From NCBI GenBank assembly GCA_005790605.1, contig SXUI01000017.1:1-64000 (forward strand): DNA of 64,000 bases, in the 5' to 3' direction. Source of the DNA: Planctomycetia bacterium. GTDB lineage: Bacteria > Planctomycetota > Phycisphaerae > Phycisphaerales > SM1A02. A model generated the notes under the pieces. It saw only the letters and a list, made by a program, of their open reading frames with translations. It did not search any database and was not told the DNA's origin. This document shows positions 28,001-43,275 of the stretch, one piece after another (the first letter of the stretch is position 1; each line of letters starts with the position of its first letter). Both the position numbers and the translations under genes were made by a program.

Positions 28001-28524
28001 AGCCTCGTGACGCAGGTGCATCGTCCGAGTCGGATTCCGGTTCAGGAGGCGACGCGGATGAGGCTGACACATCTGAAGCAGCCGCGTCTCCCGCCATCGA
28101 AGGCGACACTTCAGGCGGCGGTGCGCGGAAACGACGAAGGCGTCGAGGTGGTCGTGGCCGATCCTCCGCGCGCGGTCAGGGCGATGCCCCTGAAGCAGCA
28201 GCTGCTTCACCGGCACAGCCCCACCCACATCATGCGCGAGACACAGCCCACGCCACACGCAACCCGAACGAACGCTCTGAACCTCGCGAAGGTTCACGAC
28301 GGGGCCGTCGCGGACGCGGCGGCCGACGCGGAAACGGCGGTTCGAGCGAAGATCGCGGTGGCTCGGGAGCGCAAGCTCCCGCGAGCGCCCCACGCGCCTC
28401 GGCACCTGCACCTGCACCTGCCCCCACCCCTGCTGCAAGTTCTCCAGCACCAGTGAAGCGCGGCCTCTATGCGCGCAATCGCAAACTCTCCCCGGGTGAA
28501 CGACCCAAGGGCGACGACCGCTGA
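25015..28524 (+). CDS. RNase E/G family endoribonuclease with an IF-2 N-terminal-like domain
   Basis: 1169 residues. The start ATG 25015 has AAGGAAGG 6 bp upstream. An acidic N-terminal extension (~1-160) is followed by an Arg/Gly-rich patch, then the S1 domain (about 252-292, GSIYKARVLNVEPAIQAAFV). The catalytic part has AIDVNSGRS with Asp524 and VVADLIDM with Asp567, spaced as E. coli Asp303 and Asp346. The zinc link CPAC (Cys625, Cys628) is 58 residues on, again as in E. coli. It processes and degrades RNA, cutting single-stranded AU-rich sites. The long C-terminal half is disordered and Arg-rich. Residues ~868-916 (VIKVFELAKELSQASKDLLS, then KSHMTKLTGAEADAIRLHFG) look like the IF2_N domain. 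The stop overlaps the dxr start (TGATG). Confidence 0.93.
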   Translation: MTEYEMDGATEKNTNNPGREADGAETTAEQAELAETLAAEAGVPELDAADEVHPDADQNHRGWTGASPPLLDEAPAHEWNLEAWESAGTAFRAEHDEEVAAHTDDEGHDDVVDGDDGEQVEESDDEFDGGAESDIADAATDGADTDDAQSSALGAEGNPAVATEGRRGRRRRGGRGRRGGEKVAPVDGARAASHASGEERDHDEPTRRAEAKPKVVMLVNDNAGSELRIAILENNTLAQYFSERTSTATNVGSIYKARVLNVEPAIQAAFVDFGEGANGFLHVSDLHPKYFPGEERTEKVGRKIPRHDRPMMQHALKRGQEILVQVLKEGLGSKGPTLTSYLSLPGRLLVMMPDMDNIGVSRKVEDEDQRRAMRKILDSLELQEGFGFILRTAGFDATRTELMRDAQYLTRLWQQMEKRMHAVGAPCQLYAEGDVLLRTIRDGIDGDVEAIIVDSESAFRRAKAFLEVVAPRASELLRYWDRSTPLFYAFDIERQIELIHSREVPLPSGGALVFDQTEALVAIDVNSGRSRAARDSETNAYNTNVEAVDEICRQLRLRDLGGLVVADLIDMRSAKHRRDIEERVRLHLRKDRAKSTVAPISEFGIMELTRQRMRPSMRKTHYHDCPACAGTGELRNPDAVASDAMRRLAAILDIDRVRRVEIVVGSKVAATLLSTKRRALVEIEDEFGKTVSVRISDAIPPDRADFYAYDERDTDIELERMPRLERPTIAKLPSVVASDDEGDEDGGADGDSEQVGGGRRRRRRRRKPAAADATALILSGGFDDLPDLDAAEPTVAEALKHEAQKRAQEATARAEADVRARREAKERAQREELAEYERALAEARAAARMRAHQRAVGEAITLRASGDVIKVFELAKELSQASKDLLSLCIELDLGKKSHMTKLTGAEADAIRLHFGALPMPEPDPERLEALTEEELASVAMEFEARRPQARGDASPTAQAHGGENDGAEAGQGGRKRRRRRRGRGRNRDGGDAGEQPRDAGASSESDSGSGGDADEADTSEAAASPAIEGDTSGGGARKRRRRRGGRGRSSARGQGDAPEAAAASPAQPHPHHARDTAHATRNPNERSEPREGSRRGRRGRGGRRGNGGSSEDRGGSGAQAPASAPRASAPAPAPAPTPAASSPAPVKRGLYARNRKLSPGERPKGDDR

Positions 28525-33274: not shown

Positions 33275-33393
33275 AACGCACCCATGCCTCGCCAGCACCG
33301 AACTTTGGGGAACAATACCCCAGCATGCACGCCCTCTGCATGGGGTGCGATCCGTCCTCCCTCCTCAGTCTGATTCTCTCCACCGGAGCCCAG

Positions 33394-36201
33394 ATGAACT
33401 TTGCAAGTTTGACGCTTTCTGTAGCGCTGTGTGTTTCTTCTTTCGCACAAGCCCAAGTCCAAGGCGCATCGAGTGGTCCGGATGCAATCCCGTCGACTCC
33501 CTCGCAATCGGCATTTCTTGCTGAACATCCAGGCACCGGATTCTTCACGCGTGAGAGCAGCATTACGCGCGTCTACGGTCCGGCGTTCTCTTCTGGCGCG
33601 ACACCGATGGAGTCCGCCGAGTCGTTCCTGCGATCTTGGACTCCGATCTTCGGCGCGCAGTTTGGTGATCTCCTCGCGATTGGTCAGTACGAGGACGGGC
33701 ACTGCTTACAGCCGTTGATGGTGGATGAAGACACCGGGATGGACAAGTTCACGCTCGTCTCCTACTCGCAGTTCGTGCAAGGCGTTCCGGTGTTCCGTTC
33801 GAGCGTTCGATGCCTCGTGCGAAACGAGAACGGCTTTCCCCTCGTCCTCGTCTCGAATGAACTCAAGGATCTCGGCGACTTCGCCACGACTTTCACTGGC
33901 AAGGTGGTTCCGCCAAGCCGCATCGATATGAAGAAGGCGACCCGCTACGCGCTGAATGAATTCCGCGCCGCGCCAACCATTTCTGCGCAGGAGATGGTTG
34001 TGTGGGCTGGCTACGAAGAGATCAAGGCAGACAAGCCTGTCCTCGCTGTGAAGTTCATCGCCGAAGGCGGCAATGTCTTCGATGAAGCGAGCCGCCAGAA
34101 GTTCCTCTTCGTCGTCGAAGCGTCCTCGGGACGAATTCTCTATCAGGAGAACATGATCCTCAACGCTGATCTCACGATCAACACGCGAGGCATGGGCACG
34201 GAGAACATGGTTGCTGACGCGTGCGCAAACGAAGTCTCGATGGCGCTTCCGTACGGCAAGATTACCTACGGCGCGACGACGATCTACGCAAACGCAAATG
34301 GCGTCGCGCTCGCGATCATCAGCGCGAACACAGCGTTCACTTCGACGACTTCAGGTCGTTACTTCACGATGAACAATGTTCCCGGCCTCGAGAGTTCCAT
34401 CACGACGAGCTCCGCGGGCGGCGTGCTTGACTTCATGCACAACTCTGCGAACTCGGTTGAGTTGACGAGATCCGAGGTCAATGCGTACATCCAAGCAAAT
34501 CTCGTTCGCGATCTCACCTTGAGCGCGAGCCCAAGCTACCCAACGATTTCCACGCAGCTGAACTGGCCGATCAATGTCGGTGTTGCCGGTACCTGCAATG
34601 CGTTCTACGACGGGGCTTCGATCAACTTCTATGCCTCAGGCGGCGGATGCAACAACACCGGCTTCGGTGATGTCGTGCATCACGAGTACGGGCACCACCT
34701 CGTCGCAGTCGCAGGCTCGGGTCAGGGCGCGTACGGCGAAGGCATGGGCGATGTGATGGGCGTCCTCATGAAGGACCAACCGGAACTCGGCGTCGGATTC
34801 CAAACTTGCTCCGCTGGTATTCGAAACGCTGCGAATACGTGTCAGTACTCCTCCTCAGGATGCTCGAGCTGCGGCTCCGAGATTCACGCGTGCGGCCAGC
34901 TCATTTCCGGCTGTGTGTGGAGCTTGCGCAACGCTTTCGTCGCGCAATACCCCACGACCTATCGTTCCAAGCTTGCCGCGCTCGCGGTCAATGCGATGCC
35001 GCTGCACACCGGAACGACGATCGCGGGCGACATCACGATTGACTACCTCACGCTGAACGACAACAACGGAAACATTGGCGACGGCACTCCAGACTACGGC
35101 GCGATCAACGGCGCGTTCACTGCGCATGGTCTTCCAGGACCGGCCGTCGAGTTGCTGAGCTTCAGCTTCCCATCAGGGATTCCGACGCTTTCGAATCCGA
35201 ACGGTTCGACGTCGGTCGCAGTCAATGTCGGCGCATTGAGCGCCACCCCCGCCGCTGGTTCAGGCAAGATGTACTGGCGCAACGGCACGACTGGAACCTT
35301 CAGCGTGTCGAACATGACGCAGGGCGCGGCGAATCAGTACACCGCAGCACTCCCCGCGCTTCCTTGTGGCACGACGCTGCAGTTCTACTTCGCGGCGAAC
35401 ACCACGACCGGCATCGCTGTCACGAGTCCTTCGAACGCACCCGTGACATTCCATAGCGCATCGGTCGCAACTGGTTCCTCAAACACCTTTGTCGACACCG
35501 TCGAGACCAACCTCGGATGGACGCTGACGACGGCTGGTGACACAGCGACCACAGGTCAGTGGGTGCGGGCTGATCCAGTGGGAACTATCAACGGGACGAC
35601 ACAAGTGCAGCCTGAACTCGATGTCACAACTGGCACCGGCGTGAACTGCTTCTTCACTGGTCAGGGCACCGCGGGCGGAACACTTGGCGCGGCAGATGTG
35701 GACGGCGGCTACACAACGCTCACATCGCCAACGATGAGCGCAACGGGCAACGAAGCGCGCATCTCGTACTATCGTTGGTACTCCAACGCGCAAGGTGGCG
35801 CACCAAACGCTGATACGTTCCGCGTCCAGATTTCAAACAACAACGGCTCGACGTGGGCCGCGGTTGAAACCGTCGGTCCCGCGGGCTTGGAAGTCAATGG
35901 TGGGTGGATCTACAAGAACCTCCGCATCGCCGACTATGTCACCCCAACCTCGACGATGAAGATCCGCTTCATCGCTGATGACGCTGGAACGGGTTCTGTG
36001 GTTGAGGCCGCAGTGGATGAGGTCCGAATCTCCGTCGTCGAGTGCGGCGCCGCGGAAGACCTCAACGGCGACGGCGTCGTCGATGCCGCAGATGTTGCAA
36101 TCCTCCTCAACAACTGGGGCGGATCGGGCATTGGCGATATCGATGGCAGTGGCGTCGTCGACGCAGCGGATGTCGCAGCCTTGCTCAATGCTTGGGGCTA
36201 A
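33394..36201 (+). CDS. Secreted zinc metalloprotease (M36/M4-like) with dockerin-like C-terminus
   Basis: 935 residues. The start ATG 33394 has GGAG 5 bp upstream and begins a signal peptide (MNFASLTLSVALCVSSFAQA). An FTP/PepSY-like propeptide covers ~50-280 (YSQFVQGVPVFRSSVRCLVR, EASSGRILYQ). The catalytic motif is HHEYGHHL with His430, Glu431 and His434, and a likely third ligand Glu449 in GEGMGDVMG, as in fungalysin-type gluzincins. Beta-rich domains follow. Residues ~888-934 hold two EF-hand-like repeats, DLNGDGVVDAADVAILLNNWG and DIDGSGVVDAADVAALLNAWG (each shown in part), the dockerin-type module common in Phycisphaerae. It probably digests external protein. Confidence 0.88.
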   Translation: MNFASLTLSVALCVSSFAQAQVQGASSGPDAIPSTPSQSAFLAEHPGTGFFTRESSITRVYGPAFSSGATPMESAESFLRSWTPIFGAQFGDLLAIGQYEDGHCLQPLMVDEDTGMDKFTLVSYSQFVQGVPVFRSSVRCLVRNENGFPLVLVSNELKDLGDFATTFTGKVVPPSRIDMKKATRYALNEFRAAPTISAQEMVVWAGYEEIKADKPVLAVKFIAEGGNVFDEASRQKFLFVVEASSGRILYQENMILNADLTINTRGMGTENMVADACANEVSMALPYGKITYGATTIYANANGVALAIISANTAFTSTTSGRYFTMNNVPGLESSITTSSAGGVLDFMHNSANSVELTRSEVNAYIQANLVRDLTLSASPSYPTISTQLNWPINVGVAGTCNAFYDGASINFYASGGGCNNTGFGDVVHHEYGHHLVAVAGSGQGAYGEGMGDVMGVLMKDQPELGVGFQTCSAGIRNAANTCQYSSSGCSSCGSEIHACGQLISGCVWSLRNAFVAQYPTTYRSKLAALAVNAMPLHTGTTIAGDITIDYLTLNDNNGNIGDGTPDYGAINGAFTAHGLPGPAVELLSFSFPSGIPTLSNPNGSTSVAVNVGALSATPAAGSGKMYWRNGTTGTFSVSNMTQGAANQYTAALPALPCGTTLQFYFAANTTTGIAVTSPSNAPVTFHSASVATGSSNTFVDTVETNLGWTLTTAGDTATTGQWVRADPVGTINGTTQVQPELDVTTGTGVNCFFTGQGTAGGTLGAADVDGGYTTLTSPTMSATGNEARISYYRWYSNAQGGAPNADTFRVQISNNNGSTWAAVETVGPAGLEVNGGWIYKNLRIADYVTPTSTMKIRFIADDAGTGSVVEAAVDEVRISVVECGAAEDLNGDGVVDAADVAILLNNWGGSGIGDIDGSGVVDAADVAALLNAWG

Positions 36202-36313: not shown

Positions 36314-36342
36314 TTGCCCCCCTCGGGGCGCGGTGCTACACT
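36314..36342 (+). promoter_or_regulatory. Candidate sigma-70 promoter of tRNA-Leu
   Basis: TTGCCC (36314-36319) and TACACT (36337-36342) are 17 bp apart. The expected transcription start is ~20 bp before the tRNA. Confidence 0.5.
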
Positions 36343-36369
36343 TCTCCACCCTCACTCGTGAGGAACGCT

Positions 36370-36453
36370 GCTCAGGTGGCGAAATTGGCAGACGCGCCAG
36401 CTTGAGGTGCTGGTGGGAGCAATCCCTTGGAGGTTCAAGTCCTCTTCTGAGCA
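36370..36453 (+). tRNA. tRNA-Leu (anticodon GAG)
   Basis: 84 nt. The acceptor strands GCTCAGG and TCTGAGC pair over 7 bp, with discriminator A. The D arm is present (GGCGAAATTGGCAGACGC), the anticodon loop is TTGAGGT giving GAG, the long variable arm is typical of class II tRNAs, and the T loop is GGTTCAAGTCC. CCA is not encoded. It reads CUC and CUU. Confidence 0.96.
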
Positions 36454-36460
36454 TTCGATA

Positions 36461-36502
36461 CCGCCCCCACTCTGTATGCAAAGTGGGGGCGGCGTCGTTT
36501 TT
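36461..36502 (+). terminator. Rho-independent terminator after tRNA-Leu
   Basis: An 11-bp perfect stem, CCGCCCCCACT (36461-36471) with AGTGGGGGCGG (36482-36492), followed by a five-T run at 36498-36502. Confidence 0.9.
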
Positions 36503-36533
36503 GGTCCCCCGCTGTGAATCCCCGCCGATTCCA

Positions 36534-37253
36534 TTGATAACGCTGACTCCCATCCTTGAGCCTTGCTCGCTTGACGCGACCCTTCGCGTCAACGAGACAT
36601 TTCACTCCATCCAAGGCGAATCGACATTTGTCGGTTGCCCCTGTTTCTTCATTCGGCTCGGTGGGTGCCCTCTGCGTTGCCATTACTGCGATACGGAGTA
36701 TGCATTTCGAGAAAGTGCGCCACGCACACTGGGTGCCCTGCTGGATGAAGCACGGCGCGTGGCGTGTCCACTGGTCGAGCTCACCGGCGGCGAGCCGCTC
36801 GCGCAAGCTCGCGCGTTTGCGCTCATCCGGATGCTCTGCGACGCGGCGTTCACCGTGCTCATTGAAACCTCAGGGTCGATCGACATTCAGCCCACGGACC
36901 CGCGCGCCATCCTTGTCATGGACCTGAAAACTCCCGGAAGCGGGGAGTGCGAAAAAAACCTCCTCTCAAATCTCGCTCATCTTCGACCACATGACGAAGT
37001 GAAGTTTGTGCTCACGAGCCGCGAGGATTACCTTTGGGCGCGCGAGATGATCAAGACGCACGCACTCATCGACCGCGTGCGTGCGGTCCTCATGAGTCCC
37101 GTTGCTGCCCAAGCGCGCGGGAAAGAGATCGAGGGTTGCGCGCCGCTTGATCCGCGCGCGCTCGCCGAGTGGATCTTGGCTGACCGACTGCAGGTACGCC
37201 AACAGACACAACTCCACAAACACATTTGGGAGCCTCAAACAAGAGGCGTTTGA
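36534..37253 (+). CDS. queE: 7-carboxy-7-deazaguanine synthase
   Basis: 239 residues from TTG 36534. This radical SAM enzyme makes 7-carboxy-7-deazaguanine for queuosine (preQ0) synthesis. The N-terminus (LRVNETFHSIQGEST) is the family hallmark. The [4Fe-4S] motif is the canonical C-x3-C-x2-C, CPLRCHYC. SAM/substrate motifs include ELTGGEPLAQ, LIETSGSID and VMDLKTPGSGE. No ATG or GTG is in frame near the conserved start. Longer frames run back through the tRNA-Leu gene and are excluded. It is the only queuosine gene in the window. Confidence 0.93.
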   Translation: MITLTPILEPCSLDATLRVNETFHSIQGESTFVGCPCFFIRLGGCPLRCHYCDTEYAFRESAPRTLGALLDEARRVACPLVELTGGEPLAQARAFALIRMLCDAAFTVLIETSGSIDIQPTDPRAILVMDLKTPGSGECEKNLLSNLAHLRPHDEVKFVLTSREDYLWAREMIKTHALIDRVRAVLMSPVAAQARGKEIEGCAPLDPRALAEWILADRLQVRQQTQLHKHIWEPQTRGV

Positions 37254-38372: not shown

Positions 38373-39425
38373 TCAAGGCGAACGACGAGATCCTGAGCGA
38401 GCATCTTTTCGTGGCTGACTTCGCGCGGGCGCTGGTTTTCCCTGCCTCGACGAACTCGCCGACTTCGGAACCGCGCGCTCTCGCGCCCCTGTGAGCACGC
38501 GTGCATGCGCGTCGAGTTCGATGCCCGCACCTTTGGACTTGCCCTGCGCGCGACTTCCGTCGCTTGAAACTTCGCGTCGCTCTGCACGCTTCGCGCCCTC
38601 AGCTGGCGCGTGTCCTGGGCGAGCTGCGAGGAGTCCCGCGGCACGACGAAGCGTGCGCAATTCCGCGCTCATGAGCTCACGCCATTCCCCGACTGCAAGA
38701 CCCTTCAATTGAATCGGGCCAAACTTCACGCGACGAAGTTTCTTCACGGGGTGCCCGACCCTTTGCATCATGCGGCGAATCTGACGATTGCGTCCCTCGC
38801 GTAACTCCATATAGATCGTCGTCTTCTCCCGATCTCGCTTGATCAGTCGGAGTTCACTTCGAGAGGTCCGCGACCCTGCTCCCTCGCGCTCAGGCAGATA
38901 GATGCCCTCCTCGAGCGTCTTGAGGTCCGCAGCGTCAATGCTTCCACCGAGGACGACTTCATATCCCTTGTGCACTTCGTAGCGCGGATGCGTCAATCGA
39001 TTCGCAAGTTCGCCGTCATTGGTGAGGAAGAGCAGTCCTGAACTATCGAGATCGAGTCGGCCAACGCAATAGAGCCGCGTGTTCAACGGGTGCTTGATGA
39101 GATCGATCGCACGCGGTCTTCCTTCAGGATCGCTGTTCGTGCACACGACACCGCGCGGCTTGAAAAGCACGATATACACATGCTGTTCGGTTGGCTTGAG
39201 TCGAGTTCCTCCCACGCGAATGTCATCTGACGCAGCATCGACCCACGCCGGAAGCGTGTTCACGAGATGGCCATTGACGACGACTTCGCCCGCGAGAATG
39301 AGCGCCTCGCATTCGCGGCGTGACGCAACTCCCGCATCGGCCATGACGCGTTGCAATCGCTCTCCTCGCGCGCTGTCGTTGAACTGATGGGTTTCTTGGC
39401 TTCGTGCTATCCGGCGCTCGCGCAT
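38373..39425 (-). CDS. 23S rRNA pseudouridine synthase (RsuA/RluB/RluE family)
   Basis: 350 residues. The N-terminal S4 RNA-binding domain is GERLQRVMADAGVASRRECE. The catalytic domain has LFKPRGVVCTNSDPEGRP, the active Asp in GRLDLDSSGLLFLTNDG, and GRNRQIRRMMQRVGHPVKKL. It isomerises a uridine in rRNA; RluB-like (large subunit) is the likeliest branch. A basic tail of ~90 residues (PARSQPRKDARSGSRRSP) extends beyond the family core and may bind rRNA. The start ATG 39425 is preferred over 39449, which would overlap the divergent gene. Confidence 0.9.
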   Translation of the reverse strand: MRERRIARSQETHQFNDSARGERLQRVMADAGVASRRECEALILAGEVVVNGHLVNTLPAWVDAASDDIRVGGTRLKPTEQHVYIVLFKPRGVVCTNSDPEGRPRAIDLIKHPLNTRLYCVGRLDLDSSGLLFLTNDGELANRLTHPRYEVHKGYEVVLGGSIDAADLKTLEEGIYLPEREGAGSRTSRSELRLIKRDREKTTIYMELREGRNRQIRRMMQRVGHPVKKLRRVKFGPIQLKGLAVGEWRELMSAELRTLRRAAGLLAARPGHAPAEGAKRAERREVSSDGSRAQGKSKGAGIELDAHARVLTGARERAVPKSASSSRQGKPAPARSQPRKDARSGSRRSP

Positions 39426-39447
39426 GCGGTGAGTGTACGCTGCCAAC

Positions 39448-41292
39448 ATGCTTCATTGCGCCAGCATTGCCGCCATGGTTCTTCTGCTGACGACGCCGCC
39501 CAACGATGCACGCACCGCGCTCGACGCATTCGGCCCGGCAGCCCGCGCGCGGGCCGAGGCCTTGCTGGCAAGTCTGCCACTCCTCGCTCAGCGTCAGCAT
39601 CGCCCTGATGTACCCACCCCACTCCAAGCACTGTTCGAGCGCCCTCTGTTTGCCGAAGGCATTGTCGATCAATTGAGCCCGGTCGAGCAAGAACTTCGCG
39701 CGCATCCATGGACTGCAGTCGGCAAGAGTGCCGCTGCTTCATTCGGCGTTGCACTGACGGATACCGAACCGCACGGCACCTTCAAAGTCGAACATCCGAT
39801 GGCCTGCATCTGGCTCATGGACTTTCTGCTCAATGGCGCGCGACCCATCGTCGAAAGCGCGATTTCCAAGGAAACGCTCGGCGCATCATTCTCATCGGAG
39901 ATCGCACGTGTGCTCAACGATCGAACCGCCGATCTCCGCATTCCTCCCGAAGATGCCCAAGGGAGGGCGCTCGCGACCACTGGTTTCGCAAGCGTCGATC
40001 GCGCGAAACTCCTCGCTGCCATCGAACATCTCCAAGTCGACTTCGCGATCACAGAGGGGATTCCAGCGATGGAAGGTGATCCACTGCCCGAAGAACTCAA
40101 GAGCGCGGTGCAAGGAAAGGTGATCACCTGCGAGAAGATTCCGGATCTTGGTTGGGTGATTGTCGGTGGCCTTGAAGCCAATACCTACGACCTCGGCGTC
40201 GTCGCCGCAGTTTTCGATTTCGGTGGAGATGACACCTATCACTGGCGACACGGTGCGTTCGATCATCGAGGCGTCGTCGATCTTGCAGGAAATGACTCGC
40301 ACGATGGCGGCGACTTCGGACCCGCATCGGGCGTCGGAGCTCTCGCCTTCATCGACGACCACGCGGGCAACGACACCTATCAAGGCAGCCTCGCGAGCGC
40401 CGCGGTCGGCATCTGCGGCATCGGGGTGATCGTGGATCGGGCCGGCAACGACATCTACCGAGGGAAAAACTGGTCGGTTGGTGCAGGTGTTGCCGGCGTC
40501 GGCGCGATCGTTGACCTCGCCGGCGACGATCGATATCAAGCGGGCATCTTTGGCGTTGCCCTCGGAGGGCCGCTTGGCGCAGGCTTCGTGTTCGAGGGCG
40601 GCGGCAATGACCTTTATCGGGTGAAGGGGGAACGCCTCTCCGTCTACGGACTCACGACATGCGATTGCTCATGGGGCATCGGGATGGGATTTGGATTTCG
40701 CCGCGATGTGAGCGGTGGAACCGGTTTCATCGATGACTTCGGAGGCAATGATCACAGCGAGAGCGGCGAATTCTCGCAAGCATGTGGCTACTACTTTGGA
40801 CTCGGCGCGATTCGAGATCGCGCGGGGGACGATATTCGAACCGCAGATCGATACAGCGTCGCCGCGGCGGCGCATCAAGCGGGCGGCATATTCCTCGATG
40901 CATCAGGCAACGACAGCAATGCCTGCGCGACCGCAGCCAACTGTGGAGGCGCATGGGATCAGAGCGTGGCTGTCTTCATCGACTGCCATGGCGATGACAG
41001 TTACCACTGTGATGGGCTCGCCATCGGCGCTGCAGCGCAACAGGCACTTGGCCTTTTTGAGGATCGCGCGGGCCGCGACCGTTACCGCTTCGCTGGACAG
41101 TCTCTTGGTTCAGGCGGGATGAACGAGTACCACTTCAAAGACGCGGGGCTTGGTTCGCTTTCCCTCTTCCTTGACCTCGGCACCGCGATCGACCTCTATC
41201 TAGGCGACGGAAGCGATGGGATGCGTCGTGTCACATCTGAAACAGTGACGCCGGAGATGGCGCAACTCGACGCCATCGCGATCGATCGGTGA
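39448..41292 (+). CDS. Secreted repeat protein with D-x-x-G-x-D-x-Y repeats
   Basis: 614 residues from ATG 39448 (GTG at 39433 is possible). The hydrophobic start MLHCASIAAMVLLLTT looks like a signal. Residues ~25-250 are a helical domain. From ~255 onwards there are about ten repeats of 25-35 residues built on Asp-x-x-G-[GND]-D-x-[YH]: FDFGGDDTYH, VDLAGNDSHD, DDHAGNDTYQ, VDRAGNDIYRG, VDLAGDDRYQ, FEGGGNDLYR, DDFGGNDHSE, RDRAGDDIRT, LDASGNDSNA, EDRAGRDRYR. Alternating Gly/Ala-rich strands suggest a beta-solenoid, perhaps calcium-binding. Similar anonymous proteins occur in planctomycetes. No catalytic motif is visible. Confidence 0.75.
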   Translation: MLHCASIAAMVLLLTTPPNDARTALDAFGPAARARAEALLASLPLLAQRQHRPDVPTPLQALFERPLFAEGIVDQLSPVEQELRAHPWTAVGKSAAASFGVALTDTEPHGTFKVEHPMACIWLMDFLLNGARPIVESAISKETLGASFSSEIARVLNDRTADLRIPPEDAQGRALATTGFASVDRAKLLAAIEHLQVDFAITEGIPAMEGDPLPEELKSAVQGKVITCEKIPDLGWVIVGGLEANTYDLGVVAAVFDFGGDDTYHWRHGAFDHRGVVDLAGNDSHDGGDFGPASGVGALAFIDDHAGNDTYQGSLASAAVGICGIGVIVDRAGNDIYRGKNWSVGAGVAGVGAIVDLAGDDRYQAGIFGVALGGPLGAGFVFEGGGNDLYRVKGERLSVYGLTTCDCSWGIGMGFGFRRDVSGGTGFIDDFGGNDHSESGEFSQACGYYFGLGAIRDRAGDDIRTADRYSVAAAAHQAGGIFLDASGNDSNACATAANCGGAWDQSVAVFIDCHGDDSYHCDGLAIGAAAQQALGLFEDRAGRDRYRFAGQSLGSGGMNEYHFKDAGLGSLSLFLDLGTAIDLYLGDGSDGMRRVTSETVTPEMAQLDAIAIDR

Positions 41293-41316: not shown

Positions 41317-42639
41317 TCAAAGCATCGTAACGGGTGGCGTGCGTGGCGCGGCGACATCAAGGCGCAAGACCTCGATCGCGAGGTCCTTCGCATCAGGCGC
41401 GCGCGCGTCACTGCGAGCGGTGCCATCCGCATCGAGTTCTATAGAAGTGAACGCGCGTTCGGTGCGTTGTGCCAACTGCCGTAAGCTCGCGCTCACCACT
41501 CGCATCTCGTTGGACAACTGCTCGCGAACGACTGTCGCGATGCCCCGAGCGGCAGACGCGATTTTCGTTGGGTCGCCGCCGAGCACGATGGGCTCCCATG
41601 GCTCAAGCGCGCGAAGCGTCGCGTCGATTCCCGAGCGCGTGCGCGCCATGCGATCTTCCGCAATCGCGAGACTTCCAGAGGTTTCTTCGCCGCGCTCGAC
41701 GAGGAATCGAATCGAGTCCTGCATTCGGCGAGCCTCTTCAAGTTTCGCTGTGAGCGTCGTGGCGGTATCGGCACAGGCTCCGCTGAGCGTTCGGGTGACA
41801 TGCAGGACATCCTCGCGAAGCGCACGCAGTGTCTCCCCGCGCGCATCGAGTTCTTGCACGCCGCCCCCGAGCTTTGATTCAACTTCACTGAGCGTATGGC
41901 GCGCACATGCGAGTCGCTGCTCAAGGCGTTCAATCGCACGCTCAGCCTCCGCGCGCATCTGTGCAAGATCGCTGGTCTGAGCCATCCGCGCATCGAGGTG
42001 CGCGGTTGCCGCATCGACGCGCTGAGCAAGCGCGTTCGTCACTTGATCAAGCCCTTGTGAAAACGCCGCGAGTTTGGACTGCACGGTGTGTTCGACTTGC
42101 TTCTCAATGTCGTTCAATCGAGCGAGCCGCCATTGCACTTCGCCATCAAGCCATGCGAGCTTCTCCGCAAGCAGCGCATTGACATGCTGCACACTCTGAT
42201 CCGCGGCGCGCGATGCTGCTGCGGCAGCTGCGCTCTCCATCGCCTCGTTCGAAGACGCGACCCGTTGAAGAAGCGCTTCACCCGACGCAAACTGCTGCTC
42301 CATCGCGGGAGTCGACTGCTCCGCGCGCTTCAGTTGCACATCGAGCGCTTGAAGCATGCGCACACCGAGTCGCAGCCGGTCCTGCAGTTCATTCGCATGC
42401 ACGACCGCACTCGTCGAAGCTTCGCGAGACTCGTGCAATCGGGTTTCGAGTTGACTCAGCGTCTGCTCCCCTCGGGCGAGCGTTTCAGCGACGCGCACGG
42501 TGCTGAGATGGGAACTTGAGTGCGGGTTGGAGTGCCGTCGCGGCTCCTCCGCACTCGCACGCGGCGCAGCAACTGAGAGCGGCTCGTTCACCGCGACGCA
42601 TACACCCGTCGAACCGGCGTCAATCTGGAGTTCTTGCAT
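41317..42639 (-). CDS. Large coiled-coil protein of unknown function
   Basis: About 440 residues from ATG 42639 (ATG 42651 is also possible). After a ~50-residue lead rich in Ser/Pro, nearly the whole protein is heptad-like helix: TLARGEQTLSQLETRLHESR, LDVQLKRAEQSTPAMEQQFA, DVLHVTRTLSGACADTATTL. The C-terminus has IASAARGIATVVREQLSNEM. It looks like a structural or cytoskeletal-type coiled coil. No membrane segment is visible. An open frame extends to 42954 but would run into the divergent STAS gene region and looks non-coding. Confidence 0.65.
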   Translation of the reverse strand: MQELQIDAGSTGVCVAVNEPLSVAAPRASAEEPRRHSNPHSSSHLSTVRVAETLARGEQTLSQLETRLHESREASTSAVVHANELQDRLRLGVRMLQALDVQLKRAEQSTPAMEQQFASGEALLQRVASSNEAMESAAAAAASRAADQSVQHVNALLAEKLAWLDGEVQWRLARLNDIEKQVEHTVQSKLAAFSQGLDQVTNALAQRVDAATAHLDARMAQTSDLAQMRAEAERAIERLEQRLACARHTLSEVESKLGGGVQELDARGETLRALREDVLHVTRTLSGACADTATTLTAKLEEARRMQDSIRFLVERGEETSGSLAIAEDRMARTRSGIDATLRALEPWEPIVLGGDPTKIASAARGIATVVREQLSNEMRVVSASLRQLAQRTERAFTSIELDADGTARSDARAPDAKDLAIEVLRLDVAAPRTPPVTML

Positions 42640-42876
42640 ATCGCGTCGCATCCTGCTTGGCGTTGAAGAAACCTGCGTGAGTCCAACCCGTGTTGGGAAC
42701 TCGCCTTGGGAGAGACAAACCTCCCCTCTCGAACCCACGCAGACCTGCCTGTCTTTCGGCGATTCGGCTGCTCGACCGCGAATCCGCGCAGTCTTCAGCC
42801 GCTCCCGATTGCAGGAATTCTGAGTTTCTTTTGCAGATCCCTCCATTTGGCTCGTTAGACGGTCGAGAAAAATGGG

Positions 42877-43275
42877 GTGACCCCCTTCCACACATCCAAT
42901 GGCACCGATCGTGGCTCGCTCGCTCAGTATGTTGCCGTCGAGAGGCATGGACACGGGGTCGTCGCCCGCGTGACTTGTCCTGTCGTTGGACAGCGCGAGG
43001 CACCCATCATCATTTCCGAGATTGCTGACGCTTTGAGCGCCAACAATTTCCCACGAAACTCAAGCCTCGTGCTTGATTTCAGCTCCGTCACAGTGCTCTC
43101 AAGCATGGGTTTGGGCATGCTGATTGACCTTCGCAATCGTTGCAACACGATGGGCCTGCGACCGGTGATTTTCGGCGCCAACGGCCAGCTCCGCGACTTG
43201 CTTCGCATGATGAAAATCGACCGTATGTACGCCCTGATGTACGGCCGCGAAGACCTCTACAAGGCCGTCGCGTAA
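42877..43275 (+). CDS. STAS domain protein (anti-sigma factor antagonist-like)
   Basis: 132 residues from GTG 42877. The STAS fold is recognisable: [16 protein letters not shown], the strand [21 protein letters not shown] and [20 protein letters not shown], with a final amphipathic helix. In SpoIIAA/RsbV-type antagonists the loop reads D-S-[ST]-G and is phosphorylated by a switch kinase. Here it reads LSSMG, so Ser75/Ser76 are the candidate acceptors and the preceding Asp is lost. No kinase or phosphatase partner is adjacent. It is divergent from the coiled-coil gene. Confidence 0.83.

Follow-up and report, generated by a model that had tools for sequence, protein, structure and literature searches.

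A repeat-protein gene and its surroundings

The window analysed here comprises 64,000 nucleotides of contig SXUI01000017.1 from a Planctomycetia bacterium. It contains, on the plus strand, an open reading frame that begins at 39433 or 39448 and ends at 41292; from the ATG at 39448 it encodes a 614-aa repeat protein (P0001; 39448-41292). The gene is full-length in all four genomes of the genus that were searched (G000-G003), G001-G003 being the three other than the window's own, where a second locus gave a weak match (E 0.094) with 2 stops and was rejected. Comparison with the nearest congener gave dN/dS values of 0.04 (repeat array) and 0.11 (N-terminal part), with dS near saturation, and the window gene is under purifying selection.

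The protein opens with a hydrophobic stretch (residues 1-22; 39448-39513), described in a first-pass annotation of this DNA as a signal-like start. The hydrophobic character holds, but we grade the signal peptide of the window copy as weak because its n-region lacks K/R; canonical signal peptides are found in many near homologues. The N-terminal domain that follows (residues 23-223; 39514-40116) was delimited in an alignment of near homologues (A1), and the helical nature previously ascribed to it is supported solely by a low-confidence AlphaFold model, which shows helices up to about residue 221. A cap coil with the consensus GxxxNxYD (residues 235-256; 40150-40215) lies ahead of the array, which consists of eleven coils (residues 257-575; 40216-41172), each opening with [D/E]-x-x-G-x-D-x-[Y], and the start of a degenerate 12th coil, DLGTAIDLY (residues 576-584; 41173-41199).

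The repeat-protein gene starts back to back with a divergent S4/PseudoU_synth_2 gene (38376-39449, minus strand). The distance between the two starts is ~25 bases at most, and the genes may overlap (39425-39449), so the promoters of both genes are probably inside coding sequence. Downstream are a convergent gene for a coiled-coil-like protein with no family assignment (41317-42954), a STAS gene and an Oxidored_q6 gene. In the 21 neighbourhoods compared, the coiled-coil cluster recurred in at least 8 and the pseudouridine synthase cluster in at least 7; one relative of the coiled-coil protein matches Apolipoprotein below the cut-off of that model. A BrkB gene directly follows the array gene in at least 5 of the 21 near-family neighbourhoods, too few cases for a functional claim. 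Across the phylum, gene clustering of 40 loci showed that any one partner recurs beside the array gene in a few loci at most, and no lyase or sugar-use gene cluster was found adjoining it. Scanning of 23 of 28 close same-strand neighbours found LolA_like and DUF1329 in 2 each, and the other listed Pfam families once each. The lack of a recurring partner is consistent with an envelope protein that stands alone and is inherited vertically, more than with membership of a sugar-use locus.

Other features of the window were also recorded. A 958-aa protein (33325-36201) with no Pfam family at E <= 1e-5 ends in two D-x-N/D-G-D/S-G-type repeats, which we take to be dockerin-like, and holds the sequence HEYGHH, presumably a metalloprotease-like motif; its relatives occur in 9 of 21 neighbourhoods. 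A tRNA-Leu gene (gag; 36369-36454) overlaps the 5' end of a Radical_SAM open reading frame as listed (36333-37253), and the true start of that frame is therefore probably further downstream. ARAGORN called a tRNA-Ala (cgc) on the minus strand at 28246-28319, within a large plus-strand open reading frame; this call is absent from the Rfam matches at gathering score and is possibly false.

The array has a single period of 26-27 residues

Ten strict D-x-x-G-x-D motifs are present in the window protein, whereas 20,000 shuffles averaged 0.68 and never exceeded 5, confirming that the repeat first noticed from the sequence is real; accepting E as the first residue brings the count to 11 coils. These start at residues 257, 278, 304, 330, 356, 383, 430, 457, 484, 512 and 539, giving spacings of 21, 26, 26, 26, 27, 47, 27, 27, 28 and 27. 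The repeats are thus of 26-28 residues apart from a short coil and a long one, coil 6 (47 residues, 383-429; 40594-40734), which carries an insertion conserved among homologues. The first-pass annotation had counted about ten repeats of 25-35 residues, a number close to the 11-12 found here but a length range that was too wide. It had also stated beforehand that homologues should share a regular repeat, and their coil spacing is identical to that of the window protein.

We compared 57 arrays, obtained from 62 loci after removal of two duplicates, two partial sequences and one unrelated sequence; their median pairwise identity is 39%. The Asp/Gly core, earlier called near-invariant, is indeed nearly fixed across the 11 coils, with the first Asp kept in 48-57 arrays per coil, the Gly in 48-57, the second Asp in 56-57 and the Tyr in 47-57. 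The window protein itself lacks the repeat Tyr in coils 2, 7, 8 and 9 (H285, S437, R464 and N491). Coils 3-6 match coils 7-10 in hhalign at 99.85%. Lag analysis scored +0.85 at lag 26 for coils 1-5 and +0.36 at lag 27 for coils 7-11, with lags 9 and 18 at -0.79 and lower, indicating a period of 26-27 residues without a sub-period of 9 or 18.

A widespread family with variable N-terminal domains

A protein search with the window protein reached E <= 1e-5 for 28 of the 61 near genomes, and a profile search detected the family in 123 of 294 Planctomycetota genomes (~40%), at times in several copies per genome. One relative, L032, is 79% identical over the whole protein. No relative was found among the viral contigs, plasmid records or phage records searched. 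The window protein exceeded the cut-off of no Pfam model and matched nothing in NCBIfam or PHROG, and a profile of the array alone, built from 40 sequences, retrieved no PDB chain at E <= 10. One sub-threshold Pfam match (E 0.012) and single-sequence PDB matches to hydrolases (E 0.029 and weaker) look like chance alignments. Literature searches listed no relevant paper on such a repeat, and it is on these Pfam, NCBIfam, PHROG, PDB sequence and literature searches that we call the repeat undescribed.

Most near homologues have the layout signal peptide, PDZ domain, helical domain and repeats. PDZ residues occupy 15 of the 23 rows of alignment A1, the eight rows without them being the four genus members, L008, L011, L016 and L022 (the last cut at its fusion point). 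In a more diverse alignment (A3), PF13180 matches 15 of 25 members (best E 1.8e-13), and the A1 profile also matches PDZ structures (best E 5e-4). The window protein gave no PDZ match when tested, and the same is true of its genus. The homologues resemble PDZ-containing envelope proteins such as HtrA and Prc, matching PF13180 and HtrA- and Prc-type NCBIfam models through the PDZ domain, but they have no recognised protease domain, and the window copy lacks the PDZ. Two fusions were seen. In L074 a single 1343-aa frame places FG-GAP, UnbV_ASPIC and PDZ (the PDZ below cut-off) ahead of the array, and at L022:175-2703 the array is preceded by an Exo_endo_phos domain and a signal-like start. Neither the PDZ nor the wide spread of the family had been noticed in the first-pass annotation, which also missed the conserved residues described below.

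The array is distinct from RTX repeats

The first-pass annotation had drawn an analogy with RTX repeats while pointing out the absence of their nonapeptides. Both parts bear on whether this could be a true RTX protein, type I secreted and folded as a GGxGxDxUx beta-roll. Each repeat does contain one RTX-like G-x-D-x-aromatic turn, in which the G-x-D-x-U portion is identical; in kind, then, the analogy stands, and both systems share a turn core of G-x-D-x-(hydrophobic/aromatic) within acidic, Gly-rich and probably Ca2+-bridged ladders. It does not extend to RTX periodicity or profiles. The array has D-x-x-G-x-D where RTX has GGxGxD, makes one turn per 26-28 residues rather than two nonapeptides per 18, and shows none of the 9-residue units, 18 per turn, of RTX proteins. 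PF00353 (HemolysinCabind) matched neither the window protein nor the homologues scanned, and was absent from G000-G003 in whole-genome searches and from G038, all of which bear the array. Alignment of the array with RTX segments from G011, G042 and G006 gave hhalign probabilities of 0.2% or less; as positive controls, RTX against RTX gave 97.9% and coils 3-6 against coils 7-10 gave 99.85%. Array homologues moreover have N-terminal signal-like starts. A true RTX identity is already disfavoured, and we consider it most improbable.

The turn most resembles the one-sided, 19-residue Ca2+ beta-roll of region IV of the antifreeze protein MpAFP/MpIBP (xGTGNDxuxuGGxuxGxux), as that roll is described in passages of PMC3492233 and PMC6891781. 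In those descriptions region IV has one Ca2+ turn per coil with GND and a continuous rod of 12-13 coils, as we suppose for the array. The two differ in that the array coil has 26-28 residues instead of 19 and a conserved Tyr, and no Thr/Asx ice-binding ladder was seen in the array.

Fold prediction and putative metal binding

AlphaFold models were of low confidence, with a pLDDT of 30.9 for the window protein together with L032, and of 39.3 for residues 290-398 with coils 7-9 supplied as extra rows (alignment A8). Strands recur per repeat, without confidence. The input to both models came only from the window protein and L032, and the resulting want of alignment depth is probably the reason for the low pLDDT. 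Since both models came out at low confidence, we infer the beta-solenoid from the sequence. The single period of 26-27 residues and the absence of any alternation between odd and even coils fit one coil per repeat.

The lack of alternation also bears on a beta-propeller, for example one of six blades with two repeats each. Twelve repeats would suit such a fold, one relative is fused to FG-GAP repeats, and FG-GAP propellers contain acidic loops. Similarity between coils is, however, about the same at odd and at even separations (0.715 versus 0.692), which speaks against two repeats per blade; 26-28 residues is short for a propeller blade, and FG-GAP models gave no match to the array. We regard a propeller as very unlikely.

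The window protein has a regular repeat with an acidic turn ladder, a trait of Ca2+-stabilised beta-solenoids, and the arrays are acidic in composition (D+E 13.6% versus K+R 6.2%, mean over 74 arrays). If each repeat is one coil, the two invariant Asp residues per coil would stack at ~4.8 Å. In RTX rolls, according to passages of PMC6891781, Ca2+ bridges Asp residues stacked at 4.8 Å and is indispensable for folding. The array would be a metal-binding one, as the first-pass annotation had suggested from the acidic spacing, its repeats probably coiling around calcium.

Four near-invariant residues suggest a putative site

We extended the alignment to 74 arrays; of 40 array genes in loci L084-L123, an exact-overlap filter left 17 as new. 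Outside Gly and the repeat core, conservation is highest in four columns, R418 (40699-40701; 74 of 74 arrays), D504 (40957-40959; 74 of 74, preceded directly by W503 in 57), Y448 (40789-40791; 73 of 74) and H476 (40873-40875; 72 of 74). Next come D582 (69) and Y584 (64), both in the 12th coil, then Y469 (62). The four fall in consecutive coils, 6 to 9, at similar coil positions: H476 and D504 each lie 8 residues ahead of the D of the next coil, Y448 lies at -9 one coil ahead of H476, and R418 lies at -12 before coil 7. Coil 9, which bears D504, is the least similar to the other coils. In a solenoid, such positions would bring the four residues onto one face, no more than a few coils apart.

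Departures from this set occur in two sequences only, L024 (H to Y) and L120_4, and all four residues are kept in the window protein despite its four lost repeat tyrosines. In the L120 array (L120:7374-8660), the equivalents of Y448 and H476 are replaced by Q and R while R and D are kept, which makes it, judged by residues, a candidate inactive paralogue and natural control. Chiefly on this pattern of conservation we propose a putative site; the four residues look like an undescribed binding or catalytic one.

Such invariance could instead reflect a purely structural or adhesive role, in which a Ca2+-stabilised envelope solenoid performs no chemistry and the four residues pack around the irregular coil 6. 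R418 does adjoin the conserved coil-6 insertion, the gene stands alone without a conserved partner in the phylum-wide set, and the FG-GAP/UnbV_ASPIC fusion suggests a role in surface display. However, conservation in the remaining coils falls mainly on Gly, Ala, aliphatic residues or the repeat core, whereas R, Y, H and D are polar residues of single occurrence kept at ~39% median identity, and their paired loss in L120_4 is harder to square with packing. This alternative has an appreciable chance of being right, though one well short of even.

A solenoid enzyme acting on uronic-acid polymers, as a lyase or in the manner of a C5-epimerase, would be a special case of a site-bearing solenoid. 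The Arg would neutralise the carboxylate, His and Tyr would abstract and donate a proton, and the Asp would tune the His. The beta-helix of AlgG offers a parallel, passages of PMC4444821 reporting that it uses Arg, Tyr and the DPHD-motif His in this way, and R418, Y448, H476 and D504 form a set of the same kind. The likeness to the AlgG/AlgE mannuronan C5-epimerases, right-handed beta-helices with a His/Tyr/Arg site, is an analogy only: the array shares a single Arg/Tyr/His/Asp set and a presumed solenoid, but no sequence match. The array matched no known beta-helix, lyase or enzyme family in Pfam, NCBIfam or the sequences of solved structures, either in the window protein or in the homologues scanned; at the level of sequence, the known enzyme domain that would have spoken against the first-pass annotation was not recognised in it. 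The repeat differs, no lyase or sugar-use cluster adjoins the gene, and the substrate is a guess. We consider this special case improbable.

The reading that we favour, at slightly less than an even chance, is a Ca2+-stabilised envelope solenoid of Planctomycetota carrying one shared R/Y/H/D surface site, catalytic or ligand-binding. The protein would be exported to the cell envelope and would consist of the helical domain, behind a PDZ in most near relatives, followed by a single rod of ~12 coils. This rod would be a parallel beta-solenoid with coils of 26-28 residues, each turning at D-x-x-G-[ND]-D-x-Y, with stacked acidic ladders held by Ca2+ or a similar cation at one turn per coil. It would act as the scaffold of a single site located on one face of coils 6-9, where R418, Y448, H476 and D504 may bind or chemically alter an extracellular ligand; that ligand, perhaps an acidic polysaccharide, and the chemistry are our guesses. 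Counting against this reading are the low pLDDT, the four lost Tyr and the weak signal peptide of the window copy, the lack of a conserved partner gene pointing to polysaccharide and of any family match to the array, and the fact that invariant residues can be structural.

Implications for the Planctomycetota

To our knowledge, the envelope biology of the Planctomycetota is poorly understood. This family occurs in ~40% of the sampled genomes of the phylum, with neither a Pfam or NCBIfam model nor a solved relative for its array. It is conceivable, if rather doubtful, that it constitutes an undescribed enzyme family, in which a 12-coil Ca2+-dependent solenoid would use the R/Y/H/D site in coils 6-9 to modify an envelope or environmental polymer, with the PDZ and helical domains targeting or regulating it. 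If the site is real, its four residues become targets for mutation and the Planctomycetota gain a family to be assigned. The array offers for fold and design studies a repeat with one turn per coil that is probably Ca2+-dependent and distinct from RTX.
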